Source: Planctomycetota bacterium
GTDB taxonomy: Bacteria > Planctomycetota > Phycisphaerae > UBA1845
Assembly (NCBI GenBank): GCA_030616775.1
Contig: JAUWWQ010000018.1
Location: 1-64,000, forward strand
Length of the DNA: 64,000 nt
Direction of reading: 5' to 3'
Shown: in pieces, positions 15,998 to 23,287 of the stretch
How the letters are laid out: every line of letters starts with the position of its first letter
How positions within the stretch are numbered: position 1 is the stretch's first letter
Program-made: the position numbers and the translations under genes
The notes under the pieces: generated by a model
Databases searched by the model: none
Seen by the model: the letters and a program-made list of their open reading frames with translations, nothing else
Told to the model about the DNA's origin: nothing

Positions 15998-16008
15998 ACC
16001 CAGCCTGA

Positions 16009-16138
16009 AAGGCTGGCCGACAATAGACTTGGGCAATCGGAGCGCCTCACATTTCCCAGCCTGAAAGGCTGGCCGACAATAGACTTGGGCAATCGGAGCG
16101 CCTCACATTTCCCAGCCTGAAAGGCTGGTCGACAGTAG
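16009..16138 (+). repeat. Tandem 56-base REP-like repeats (2 full copies plus a diverged third)
   Basis: Two consecutive copies of a 56-base unit begin CCCAGCCTGAAAGGCTGGCC; the copies are almost identical. A third unit starts the same way but diverges after the hairpin and runs into the GTAG-hairpin at 16139. Each unit contains the hairpin CCAGCCT-GAA-AGGCTGG. They lie directly upstream of the RAYT transposase gene. Confidence 0.75.
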
Positions 16139-16166
16139 CCGTGGGCAAGCGCAGCGCCGCCCACGG
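16139..16166 (+). repeat. Upstream REP hairpin of the RAYT locus (inverted partner at 16756-16783)
   Basis: CCGTGGGC-AAGCGCAGCGCC-GCCCACGG forms an 8-base stem and is preceded by AGTAG. The region at 16756-16783, read on the opposite strand, gives almost the same hairpin (CCGGTGGC...GCCACCGG with the same loop AAGCGCAGCGCC). It is also preceded by AAGTAG and by a diverged copy of the flanking sequence. The two therefore flank the transposase gene as inverted REPs. Confidence 0.7.
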
Positions 16167-16252
16167 ATTCCGGAACGCCAACGATTCACCCCACCCTGAA
16201 AGGGTCGTCCAAGCGTCTGCTCATCCAGAAGATTCGCCGGTAGAATGCCCCC

Positions 16253-16705
16253 ATGGCGCAAACGCTCACACGGCTCCTGGTGCACGTTGTCTTCTCCACA
16301 AAGGAACGTCGCAATCTGATAATTCCCGCGGTTGAGCTCGAGTTGCATGCCTACCTCGGCGGAATCTGTCGGAATCGAGAGTCGCCGGCGTTGGCCATCG
16401 GCGGAACCGAGAATCACGTTCATCTGCTGATCAGCCTGTCAAAGAACATCGCCCTCAGCAACTTGATGATGACGCTGAAGAAGGATTCCTCGAAGTGGAT
16501 CAAAACGAACGGAGACGCGTTCCGGGGTTTCCATTGGCAGGATGGATACGGAGCATTCTCCATCGGTGAGTCGCAGGTCCGTACGGTTACGGACTACATT
16601 CGCGGACAGAAGGAAAGGCACAAGACCCTGACCTTCAAGGACGAACTTGTTGCACTGGCCGAACGGTACGGTGTGGCCTTCGATCCTCGCTATCTTTGGA
16701 CGTGA
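16253..16705 (+). CDS. REP-associated tyrosine transposase (RAYT, IS200-like)
   Basis: 150-residue Y1 transposase of the IS200/IS605 TnpA superfamily. The HUH metal motif is NHVHLLISL (about residues 57-65) and the nucleophilic Tyr is in TDYIRGQKERH, on the expected helix. LLVHVVFSTKERR at the N-terminus is the family start. RAYTs cut single-stranded DNA at GTAG-type tetranucleotides beside REP hairpins and are single-copy, host-kept genes. The gene is flanked by inverted hairpins with GTAG (16139-16166 and 16756-16783), which is the classic layout. The frame is intact, so the gene may be active. Confidence 0.85.
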   Translation: MAQTLTRLLVHVVFSTKERRNLIIPAVELELHAYLGGICRNRESPALAIGGTENHVHLLISLSKNIALSNLMMTLKKDSSKWIKTNGDAFRGFHWQDGYGAFSIGESQVRTVTDYIRGQKERHKTLTFKDELVALAERYGVAFDPRYLWT

Positions 16706-16755
16706 CGGCCAATAGACGACCCCTTCAGAGTCGTGGTGTCCAACGTCAACCTGTT

Positions 16756-16783
16756 CCGGTGGCGGCGCTGCGCTTGCCACCGG
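16756..16783 (-). repeat. Downstream REP hairpin of the RAYT locus
   Basis: An 8-base stem (CCGGTGGC/GCCACCGG) with the same 12-base loop as the upstream hairpin, but inverted. It begins 51 bases after the transposase stop codon. The GTAG tetranucleotide lies on the minus strand next to the stem, as required for RAYT recognition. Confidence 0.65.
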
Positions 16784-16801
16784 CTACTTCAGGGCAGACC
16801 T

Positions 16802-17434
16802 TCAGCCTGCAACGCGCGACACGCGACGCCGCGTTAGCACCACCGTTCCTGCTGACATGACGAGCAACGCCATCACGGCCAAGCCCCACGCGGAGACGGT
16901 GGGAATGTCCCCATGAAGATAATAGACGTACACGGAGCCGGACGTGGAGCCGTTGTCGTCGTTGCGGGGTGCACCGACAATGGCGGTACTCCCGGCCAGG
17001 GATACCCTAAGCCCAAACCAGTCGTTGGCCGCCGCATCACTGGCCGTGAGCTTAGCGACTTCGCCCCAGTTGTTGGGACCACCCCAATGGCGCTGGAAGA
17101 TGTAGGCCGCGCCCGACATCGTCCCGGCACCATCGTGCGTGTAAGCACCTACAATGGCTGTGTCACCATCGATAGACACGCAATTGCCAAACTTGTGGCC
17201 AGTTGCCGCATCGCTCGCGGTGAGTTTCGTGACCTCACCCCAGTTGTCGGGTCCCCCTTGGTCGCGCTGGAAGATGTAGGCGGCACCGGAGCTTTCGCCG
17301 TTGTCATCATTGAAGAATGCACCGACAATAGCAGTTTGGCCGCTCACGGAGACGGAATACCCAAACTCGTCACCGCTCGCCGCATCGGAGGCACTCAGCT
17401 TGATCTCCGTATATTGGGCAGCTGCTGGCGCGCC
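16802..17434 (-). pseudogene. 5'-truncated FG-GAP repeat protein with an IPTL-CTERM-like sorting tail
   Basis: The frame begins right after a stop at 17435-17437, in mid-repeat, with no signal peptide. It then encodes three repeats of the form TAIVGA(x)n SGAAYIFQR ... WGEVxKLTASDAA (FG-GAP-like, beta-propeller). The C-terminus is IPTVSAWGLAVMALL, a hydrophobic helix, then RRR. That is the IPTL-CTERM layout known for exosortase-type cell-surface sorting. The missing N-terminus implies it is the tail of a once larger secreted gene, broken between here and gyrB. A GTG at 17347 could allow translation of the remnant, but without export signals. Confidence 0.65.
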
Positions 17435-17544: not shown

Positions 17545-20525
<2,981 letters not shown>

Positions 20526-20573
20526 CTAAATGCGCTCCAGTTACCGTTTGCGAGGCATATCTGCCCGGCTTGT

Positions 20574-21680
20574 TCACGCCGATGACAGGTTTACCGGCAT
20601 GACTACGTATACGAAGTCGTCCCCCAGACGAATGACGCCGGGACGATTCGAGGCCTTAAACGCAAATGTCAGCTCCTCGGTGTGCGCCACCCGCAGCAGT
20701 TCGAGGATAAACACCGGGTTGAAGCCTATCTCCAGCGACTCTCCTGAGTATGCCACCGGCAAGGAAACCTCCGCCTCACCTTGTTCCGGGGCCCGGCTGG
20801 TCAAGACCAGGCTGCCGTCGGAAAAGGCAAAACGAACGCCCTTGGACTCCTCGTTTGTAAGCAGCGCCGCCTGTTTCAGAGCACTAAGGAACTCTATAGT
20901 GTTCAGGGCCACCACGCAGTCGCAATCAGTCGGGATCACATCCTGATACTTGGGGAACTGCCCCTCAACCAGCGCGGTACTCAGCATCGCCCGCCCCATA
21001 TTGAGCAGCATCTGATTAGTTGTGATTTTCACTCCGACCAGCGCGTCAGGCTCTGCTGGTAACCGAGCAAACAACGACAAGGCCTTGGCCGGTACGACGG
21101 CACGCGGGGACTCCATCGAACCGCTCTTAACGAGCGGACCATGTGCCAGCGACAACCGCCGTCCGTCCGTGGCAGCCAGCGTCAGCTTCTCCCCCTCCAC
21201 CTCCCACAAAACACCGTTAATGGCGTAGCGCGTGCTCTCTTTCGCCGCTGCAAATGCCGTGAGCTCGATAAGCCGGCGCAACAGCCCGTGGTCAATGCTG
21301 ACGTCCGGCTCACCTTCCATACTCGGAATGGCAGGAAAATCAGCCAGATCCTGTGTAACGATCTGAAAATGACTACCCGCACCACGAATATGCAGCAGGT
21401 TCTCGGCTGTCTCCACAGTGAGAATCTCGTCGGTGCACTCATGGACGATTTTGGCGAGCGTGTCCGCTACCACCAGCACATCACCGGCCTCATCCACCTC
21501 AATCTGGGTCACAGCACATCGAAGGCTGAGTTCGAGATCCGTGGCCGACAACAAGACAACATCCGAATGAACCTCAACACGAACACACCGGAGGATCTCC
21601 TTGGGCGTACGCGTGGTGGCTACGCTGCACACTGCCGAGAGTCCTTCGGCCATTTCCTGCCGGTTGAATCTAAGCTTCAT
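20574..21680 (-). CDS. dnaN: DNA polymerase III beta sliding clamp
   Basis: Ring-shaped processivity clamp that tethers polymerase III to DNA. It shows the three-fold clamp architecture over 368 residues. MKLRFNRQEMAEGLSAV starts the first domain, LTLAATDGRRLSLAHG lies in the middle, and the protein ends FVYVVMPVNL, close to the conserved clamp terminus (VIMPMRL in E. coli). It lies 290 bases downstream of dnaA in the usual order. Confidence 0.94.
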   Translation of the reverse strand: MKLRFNRQEMAEGLSAVCSVATTRTPKEILRCVRVEVHSDVVLLSATDLELSLRCAVTQIEVDEAGDVLVVADTLAKIVHECTDEILTVETAENLLHIRGAGSHFQIVTQDLADFPAIPSMEGEPDVSIDHGLLRRLIELTAFAAAKESTRYAINGVLWEVEGEKLTLAATDGRRLSLAHGPLVKSGSMESPRAVVPAKALSLFARLPAEPDALVGVKITTNQMLLNMGRAMLSTALVEGQFPKYQDVIPTDCDCVVALNTIEFLSALKQAALLTNEESKGVRFAFSDGSLVLTSRAPEQGEAEVSLPVAYSGESLEIGFNPVFILELLRVAHTEELTFAFKASNRPGVIRLGDDFVYVVMPVNLSSA

Positions 21681-21970
21681 GGGAAGTCTATTCCTCTCAG
21701 ATTACTCCCGTTACGGGTAAGTCTTATTACTCTCAGTATTGAACTTAGTACTCATAGTAACCAGGTGAGAAACGTGCATATGTCAGACCGCCGCGAACGT
21801 AAGTGCTTGCAGTTTCGTAGGCTACCCGCCGCTGCGGCCGCTCCGAACAGTGAAAAGGCTGTGAACAACTCTGTGATGCTTGGGCCTGAATGGCACGCTT
21901 CCACCGTCACGAACTCCGAAGTATCGAAAGTCCCACGCAGTCGACAGGGAACCTAACGGGATTCACACGC
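21681..21970. promoter_or_regulatory. dnaA-dnaN intergenic region, candidate replication origin
   Basis: 290 non-coding bases. At 21690-21765 there is an A/T-rich patch with repeated TTACTC/AGTACTC motifs and short inverted GTTAC/GTAAC pairs, which could be an unwinding element. One good DnaA-box-like site (TTGTTCACA on the minus strand, 21860-21868, one mismatch to TTATNCACA) and one poor site (GGATTCACA, 21959-21967) are seen. That is fewer boxes than a typical oriC, so this is a candidate only. It also holds the dnaN promoter. Confidence 0.35.
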
Positions 21971-23287
21971 TCAATAAGCTCCATTCTTCACCTCTGATGC
22001 GATTTCGTCAAGCAGGGCGCGAAGTTGTGGATCCTCGTCGGCCTGTCGCTCGATGGTACGGCTAGCATGAAGTACCGTGCTGTGATCGCGGCCACCAAAG
22101 TATCCGCCGATCTCCTCTAAGCTCTGGGATGTCAGTTGCCGGGCCAGGAAGATGGACACATGCCGTGGGTGGGTAACGGCTTTCGATCGCTTCTTACCCT
22201 GCAAGTCTGATACTTTCATGTCGAACCGCTTGGAAACCGCCTCCAGGATGGACGGAATCTTGACAGCGCGCCCCGAATCGGCTCCCAGGGCTTCCTGGGC
22301 GATCTCAAGGGTGATTGCGCCGGAGTACATCTGGCTGAGGGCGTCGATCTTGACCAGGGTACCCTCGAGACTCCGGATGTTCGTGTCGATGCGGCTGGCG
22401 ACGAAGCGGATGACTTCTTCCGGAACCTCGATACACCGAAGCTTTGCCTTTTTGTGGATGATAGCCATCCGAGTTTCCAGGCACGGCCGGTCTAAGAGGG
22501 CAACCAGGCCGGAGTTGAAGCGGCTGATTAGCCGCTCCTCCAGGCTAGGGATCTCCGAAGGCGAACAGTCCGCTGAGAGGATAATCTGACGCTGCGACTG
22601 GTACAGCGTGTTGAATGTGTGGAAAAACTCTTCCTGGCTGCGTTCTCGATCAGCAAGGAACTGGATGTCATCGATCACTAGCACGTCTACGTGGCGGTAT
22701 CGGTAGCGGAAGCGGTGCAGCCCACCCAGCTCGACAGCCTCGATAAAGTCGTTGATGAACGTCTCGCATGAAATGTAGTGGCTAGTGGTATCTGATCGCT
22801 TCTTGCGGATCGCATGGCAAATCGCCTGGAGGAGATGTGTCTTTCCGAGTCCCACACGCCCGTGGATAAAGAATGGGTTGTACGCCCGGCCAGGTTCCTC
22901 TGCCACAGCCAGGGCTGCTGCATGGGCGAGCCGATTGCACGGGCCGGTGACGAAATTGTCGAATGTGTAGTCGGGATTGAGCAGGAGCTGATCGGAATGG
23001 CCACTAAGCGAGAGGACCGCTTCCGGGTGATCCTCCTGCACCGGTTCGACTTCAATTGTCACGGAGACGAGCCGCCCCGTGGCTGCTTGGGCGGCCTCCG
23101 TGAAGGCAGCGCGACAGTGCTGCTGGAGATAGTCCGATTGGGCATGATTGCGCGTGCCGATATGGAGAACTCCGTCCTCTAGCTTGGTGAGCTGTAGCTC
23201 GAAGAACCAGCCGCGAGCCAGTTGAGGATAATTCAGGCGGACCTGCCCGAGAATGTCGCTCCAAATAGTCGCTGGCGGTGTTGCCAT
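21971..23287 (-). CDS. dnaA: Chromosomal replication initiator DnaA
   Basis: AAA+ initiator that binds oriC and opens the duplex. Domain I spans about 1-90. The ATPase carries Walker A GRVGLGKTH (about 147-155), Walker B VDVLVIDDIQFL, sensor 1 ILSADC and the Arg-finger region LEERLISRFNSGLV. Domain IV has the DNA-binding signature GGYFGGRDHSTVLHA near the C-terminus. 438 residues is normal; the domain II linker is short. Divergent from top6B. Confidence 0.96.
   Translation of the reverse strand: MATPPATIWSDILGQVRLNYPQLARGWFFELQLTKLEDGVLHIGTRNHAQSDYLQQHCRAAFTEAAQAATGRLVSVTIEVEPVQEDHPEAVLSLSGHSDQLLLNPDYTFDNFVTGPCNRLAHAAALAVAEEPGRAYNPFFIHGRVGLGKTHLLQAICHAIRKKRSDTTSHYISCETFINDFIEAVELGGLHRFRYRYRHVDVLVIDDIQFLADRERSQEEFFHTFNTLYQSQRQIILSADCSPSEIPSLEERLISRFNSGLVALLDRPCLETRMAIIHKKAKLRCIEVPEEVIRFVASRIDTNIRSLEGTLVKIDALSQMYSGAITLEIAQEALGADSGRAVKIPSILEAVSKRFDMKVSDLQGKKRSKAVTHPRHVSIFLARQLTSQSLEEIGGYFGGRDHSTVLHASRTIERQADEDPQLRALLDEIASEVKNGAY

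Follow-up and report, generated by a model that had tools for sequence, protein, structure and literature searches.

IS200/IS605 insertion sequences end in subterminal hairpins that lie on the same strand. The class 2 TnpA_REP proteins, which are encoded in REPtrons, have the motif Y---NP in common (Quentin et al., 2018, PMC6006769), and for TnpA_REP a GTAG foot and hairpin direct the cleavage of single-stranded DNA (PMC8266576). Gene-less inverted REP pairs are described as REPINs or BIMEs (Bertels and Rainey, 2011, PMC3116915); GTAG repeats are reported from R. baltica, and in Anabaena GTAG-15 dimers occur within longer palindromes (Di Nocera, 2013, PMC3733652). Planctomycete GTAG REPs (those of R. 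baltica), REPINs and REPtrons are already in print. A term search of PMC2817692 for Planctomycetes and kin gave no mention. TnpA-Y1 subclass 1.2 is defined by Y---Q--HH, a WQ motif and a length of ~148 aa, and is entered in Table 1 of Quentin et al. (2018, PMC6006769) with a distribution of Cyanobacteria/Bacteroidetes and “no” for REP. The RNAMotif rule of that study demanded GTAG or GTGG, and was applied to TnpA_REP-encoding genomes. The literature searched, mostly as listings and with Bertels et al. (2017) outside the comparison, held no report linking subclass 1.2 to REP-like units, and none of a twin-hairpin unit or of REPINs carried within a MITE whose TSD is defined.

The locus and its Y1 protein

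The window, i.e., the whole stretch of DNA analyzed here, is positions 1-64000 of one contig (C99) in a 4.45-Mb assembly of 108 contigs. It contains a Y1 gene framed by two structures of the same build that face one another. Each consists of hairpin A, a 7-nt gap, GTAG, hairpin B, and a gene-proximal hairpin C (the last by eye), for an overall layout of A-B-C ... C'-B'-A' (Table 1). The arms (16113-16167 and 16755-16809, 55 nt) are 78% complementary. Hairpin B has the loop AAGCGCAGCGCC on both sides, and its left and right stems differ by compensatory changes (CCGTGGGC vs. CCGGTGGC). A first-pass annotation had described inverted hairpins at the flanks with a shared loop and a GTAG beside the stem, and all of these were located on both sides. 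It had also described two 56-base repeats and a diverged third; the window does contain three 56-bp repeats, beginning at 15999, 16055, and 16111, but it is the third that is intact, and the two identical ones that are decayed. Copies in relatives also have a hairpin resembling hairpin C (by eye).

Table 1. Features of the locus, in window coordinates.
Feature	Position	Strand	Remarks
Decayed twin-hairpin units, two identical, 56 bp each	15999..16110	+	Hairpin A intact, ATAG foot, 3' arm of hairpin B gone; 32.1 bits each
Left hairpin A (CAGCC-TGAAA-GGCTG)	16113..16127	+	Part of the intact repeat beginning at 16111
GTAG foot and left REP hairpin B, loop AAGCGCAGCGCC	16135..16166	+	GTAG 16135-16138, stem 16139-16146/16159-16166; covariance-model match 16112-16166, 78.3 bits
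Left hairpin C (ACCCT-GAA-AGGGT), in B-gene interval	16193..16205	+	By eye
Y1/HuH transposase ORF, 150 aa	16253..16705	+	Subclass-1.2-like signature: NHVH, WQ, YIRGQKERH, C-terminal tail
Right hairpin C', imperfect	16716..16734	-	By eye
Right REP hairpin B', GTAG foot (+ strand: CTAC)	16756..16787	-	Stem 16756-16763/16776-16783, CTAC 16784-16787; covariance-model match 16756-16810, 76.0 bits
Right hairpin A' (CAGGCTGAAGGTCTG on - strand)	16795..16809	-	One G-T pair

Neither of the two ORFs neighboring the Y1 gene is TnpB. One, an FG-GAP/IPTL-CTERM ORF (16802-17347, - strand), terminates within right hairpin A', so the unit may sit at the 3' end of that gene. Homologs of gyrB, dnaN, and dnaA (Pfam) lie consecutively on the - strand at 17545-23287; judging from this row, the locus is ~0.8 kb off the gyrB end of a replication-gene cluster.

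The ORF is, as first annotated, an intact IS200-like tyrosine transposase: it matches Pfam Y1_Tnp (E = 4.8e-26), with complete HuH, WQ, and Tyr motifs. Its tyrosine region reads Y---Q--RH rather than Y---NP. Of 31 homologs from the window's genus to its order, 27 were parsed and four did not parse; Y---Q is found in 27/27, Y---Q--HH in 26/27 (RH in the window protein), and WQ in 24/27, and the C-terminal tail is conserved. By the published signature (Y---Q--HH, WQ, HuH, ~148 aa, tail), the window protein fits TnpA-Y1 subclass 1.2.

The first-pass annotation took the gene for a RAYT. The inverted GT[AG]G-footed hairpins beside it and the copies elsewhere in the genome agree with this, and an ordinary class 2 RAYT/REPtron would show just such a GTAG foot, inverted flanking hairpins, and dispersed copies; but the protein has Y---Q--RH where Y---NP is expected, and reaches 22.9 bits with NCBIfam REP_Tyr_transpos, whose cut-off is 80, vs. 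67.6 with NCBIfam IS200/IS605 (cut-off 55). Members of one alignment of the family (A3) match the IS200 model in 16/16 cases, and REP_Tyr_transpos as well in 10/16. In a 63-row tree, the window family is one group of 51 rows, Bacteroidota members included, at 90/88 (under the program's 95/80 mark), and adjoins the IS605 proteins (98/86); the two together stand apart from class 2 at 92/86, again under the mark and with the long class 2 branches that call for a long-branch warning. The class 2 side consists of E. coli RayT and four other window-genome proteins labeled class 2, of which three have a plain Y---NP and one (L020) is less clear. A class 2 identity thus defined is improbable. The suggested planctomycete origin would fit some of the named relatives (Phycisphaerales), but the closest named relative among the matches listed is a Terriglobia record, at 64%.

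An AlphaFold model of the protein (pLDDT 91) has IS608 TnpA as its closest solved structure (E = 8.9e-9); E. coli TnpA_REP (4er8) also matches, at rank 30 (9.8e-6). With sequence and fold both nearest IS608 TnpA, and the IS200 model matched over its cut-off, the locus might be an IS200-type insertion sequence, intact or decayed, whose ends are the hairpins and whose copies elsewhere are solo ends. Its ends are inverted, however, where those of IS200/IS605 are on the same strand; the window genome has two matches to the Y1 protein, itself and one 42% identical, and no near-identical gene-bearing copies; and several genomes contain gene-less inverted pairs of units (below). This explanation is hardly likely. 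Two more Y1 proteins (L021, G000:C88; L022, G000:C75:105733) are of a different type (YVVEGQ/YVCEGQ) and resemble Quentin class 3 by eye; five GGAG-footed CACCGGG...CCCGGTG hairpins close to L021 are perhaps another REP system.

Twin hairpins beside homologs in several phyla

At least 584 relatives are from named genomes. Eighty of their loci were kept, by record title 47 from Bacteroidota and the others including Planctomycetota, Acidobacteria, and Verrucomicrobia. The repeat unit consists of two hairpins, A and B, with about 8 nt and then NTAG between them. Gene-facing twin hairpins were found within 300 bp on either side of the gene at 62/80 loci, and on both sides at 35/80, vs. means of 5.45 and 0.15 in 20 dinucleotide shuffles, and 7 and 1 in distant flanks (some of these far windows being short or missing). 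On the wrong strand the figures are 45 and 16. These high numbers may come from arrays of units, and make orientation a bias rather than a rule. When complete windows only are counted, twin hairpins are near 42/53 named loci vs. 6/53 in far flanks, or by sides, 79/133 vs. 8. They are absent by script at 18/80 of the kept loci; Bacteroides xylanisolvens (L245) carries a homolog that has units on both flanks. From the window's genus to its order, 30/31 loci have them on some side and 15/31 on both, vs. 4/31 for far flanks, again with some far windows short or missing (complete windows: 24/25 near, 3/25 far). No twin hairpins were found at the five control loci, which are E. coli rayT and four TnpB-linked IS605 loci with flanks of 222-294 bp.

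Among the 64 trinucleotide feet, TAG is at the top, with 63 A-preceded stems at 38 loci and a median of 2 over all feet; there are 15 such TAG-footed stems on the wrong strand and two in far flanks. For 51 units (one per flank, gaps of 5-11 nt allowed), the distance from A to NTAG is most often 8 nt (36 units) and otherwise 9 nt (13) or 7 nt (two); at the N position, A accounts for 61% and G for 22%. Where a TAG foot is missing, as in Chryseobacterium, twin hairpins with other feet are seen (14 loci, by eye). Since the sequence 5' of A shows no conservation, hairpin A is not proposed to be a guide-bearing “left end.” ATAG is the commonest foot at the loci analyzed here, and the published “no” for REP in subclass 1.2 probably stems from a search that needed GTAG or GTGG feet and was made within TnpA_REP-encoding genomes.

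Dispersed units and the MITE that carries them

For the 15-mer of hairpin A, the assembly has 17 exact matches, three of them within the window, and none to the reversed 15-mer; GTAGCCGTGGGCAAG, with up to one mismatch, occurs 18 times vs. 0, two of the 18 without a surrounding hairpin unit. A covariance model (R1) was made from 19 A-B units, 16 from the window genome and three from two relatives. In its alignment (A2), 98.4% of cells are paired vs. 86.8% when shuffled, in part by selection, as near-paired B stems were chosen. R1 matches 33 units in the window genome. The genome-wide count proposed in the first-pass annotation thus finds the hairpin not to be unique to the locus, but 33 copies is low for REPs, which typically exceed 100 (PMC2817692). 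R1 units are found in 21/60 genomes of the window's order, with at least 63 in the richest (all counts being lower bounds). Among copies inspected, units are mostly single in G034, and form inverted pairs, ~217-261 bp across, in G018, G021, and G002. Gene-less inverted pairs (REPINs, in which a short spacer separates REPs of opposite orientation) are dispersed in the window genome and in these last three, in the layout A-B-C...C'-B'-A', which is that of the window locus minus the gene.

Gene and unit tend to occur together: of the 60 genomes, 17 have both, 16 the gene only, four the R1 unit only, and 23 neither (Fisher p = 0.006). R1 covers a single unit type, so the “gene only” genomes may hold others. 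The four with units and no gene match are G002, G013, G014, and G058; G013 has at least 34 R1 units and no Y1 protein match, and units there may outlast, or spread independently of, the Y1 gene. A second model, R2, was built from 15 of 30 units in an alignment (A6) used in place of A5, which left loops of 3 and 4 nt out of register. With 150 candidates scored per genome, R2 finds dispersed copies in 18/18 gene-bearing genomes searched, from at least two to at least 83 each; all 18 carry the gene, and several contributed units to R2. The covariation figures for A6 are partly circular, its units having been picked for paired stems, as are those for A2 to a lesser degree; the case rests on the foot, flank-control, spacing, and complete-window counts rather than on covariation.

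Enrichment next to the 3' ends of genes, which the first-pass annotation had proposed looking for, was not found: the nearest flanking ORF ends are 34 three-prime vs. 30 five-prime (ORFs only). By the same measure (ORFs, no annotation), 17/48 units overall are inside ORFs vs. 0.51-0.86 of random points; G018 is an exception, with 4/6 vs. 0.51.

The hairpin pair in the window genome is usually inside an element of ~307 bp bounded by the 13-bp TIR GGGTCCGTGACAG. A TIR match (up to three mismatches) lies within ~110 bp outside hairpin A at 21/30 window-genome units, these 30 being the 33 R1 matches minus three, two of them the decayed window copies; these units thus appear to be carried by a MITE rather than to exist as free REPs. 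Of 18 candidate TIR pairs in the window genome and relatives, 11 have 9-bp target duplications matching at seven or more of nine positions, vs. a mean of 0.67 and a maximum of 4 in 1000 shuffled pairings of the 9-bp flanks; seven of the 11 rows have a hairpin unit, with one element listed twice. TIR matches outnumber those to the reversed pattern by 27 to 2 in the window genome (with a slightly different pattern), and in the same genus by 27 to 2 in G001 and 49 to 9 in G002; elsewhere the numbers are 12 vs. 7 (G021), 7 vs. 3 (G013), 8 vs. 9 (G034), and 5 vs. 9 (G018). One TIR pair with an 8/9 duplication (L341) was seen in G013. In the window's genus, then, a MITE that has 13-bp TIRs and makes 9-bp target duplications appears to have acquired a REPIN, and most copies in the window genome were probably dispersed by the MITE's own putative DDE transposase. 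Elements of ~150-160 bp without hairpin units are bounded by similar TIRs, and in 6/9 MITE copies among the matches listed, the foot of the right-hand hairpin is ATAG, not GTAG. What had been called a “classic” REPtron layout is consequently so in its GTAG foot, inverted ends, and dispersed copies, but not in its protein, which lacks the class 2 signature, nor in its units, most of those checked being MITE-associated.

A rival account takes the hairpin units to be nothing but MITE sequence, dispersed by a DDE transposase; the Y1 gene would then be an insertion in one copy, or a neighbor of it, and have no role. The TIRs outside hairpin A at 21/30 units and the target duplications are what such an origin would leave; but the TIR excess is largely confined to the genus, yet A-B units without TIRs are found in G018, G021, and G034, and the gene-facing arrangement recurs in other phyla, so that the 80-locus and complete-window counts disfavor it. 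Its probability is put as low.

No autonomous parent with GGGTCCGTGACAG TIRs was found in the window genome and the relatives scanned. For an ISKra4-type parent, there are seven family-model matches in the genome, none over the cut-off and, among the matches listed, none with a convincing adjoining TIR; a TIR on C24 has a 52-aa ORF next to it, a lead that came to nothing. A TIR pair of the REPIN-MITE type spanning 1831 bp in a relative (L349, G001:C219, 270-2100) was considered as the parent, but is read instead as a MITE copy with an insertion, because it encloses a hairpin unit together with a gene of the IS110 family (Pfam 4e-16). Two contig ends (L050, the end of G000:C85, and L009, the start of G000:C53) are interpreted by eye as the halves of a single MITE copy, divided by an insertion at TA; the 9-bp CGTGCCACC lies at each outer end, and the C53 TIR is displaced by the insertion. 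The insertion is presumably of IS630 type. REPs have been reported as targets of some insertion sequences (PMC1525189).

Interpretation and comparison with known systems

The locus is probably a REPtron-like element with a Y1 protein of the IS200 side; in this genus, a DDE-type MITE would have acquired derivatives of the element that lack the gene. The Y1 protein would most likely bind the NTAG-footed hairpin B on single-stranded DNA, and cut and rejoin near it via Tyr115, which could move or rearrange gene-less units in trans, both as single A-B-C units and as inverted pairs (REPINs). The narrow range of the A-to-NTAG distance (7-9 nt) suggests joint recognition of the two hairpins. The proposed recognition and cleavage of single strands draws on analogy with TnpA_REP (PMC8266576).

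A wider reading, held with a little more belief than doubt, is that subclass 1.2 as a whole is a second, IS200-side branch of REP systems, present in several phyla and acting on a bipartite substrate of hairpin A, ~8 nt, NTAG, and hairpin B. If so, REPtrons arose twice, or predate the split between class 1 and class 2. This bears on whether domesticated REP systems emerged from relatives of IS200/IS605 once or repeatedly, which the 2021 TnpA_REP paper (PMC8266576) leaves open. A protein class with no described function would also gain a candidate substrate, testable with short oligonucleotides. REP-like units are, moreover, seen here to travel on a different kind of mobile element, a MITE.

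Of the described systems, TnpA-Y1 subclass 1.2 shares with the window family a length of ~150 aa, the HuH, WQ, and Y---Q--HH motifs, the C-terminal tail, and many Bacteroidetes members; the window family differs in being flanked by REP-like units, and in being found in Planctomycetota, Acidobacteria, and Verrucomicrobia records as well. Class 2 REPtrons (E. coli RayT, 4er8) likewise have a Y1 HuH gene amid inverted GTAG-footed hairpins, with dispersed REPs and inverted pairs, but the signature here is Y---Q--HH, not Y---NP, and a hairpin A is added 7-9 nt before NTAG. IS200/IS605 elements (IS608, ISDra2) supply the nearest solved structures and the NCBIfam model, in contrast to which the window ends are inverted, no near-identical gene copy was found, and the adjoining ORFs are not TnpB. 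REPINs/BIMEs and the GTAG REP families also include inverted REP pairs without a gene; in the window genome, however, the pair is made up of A-B-C units, and in this genus is inside a MITE with a 9-bp TSD.
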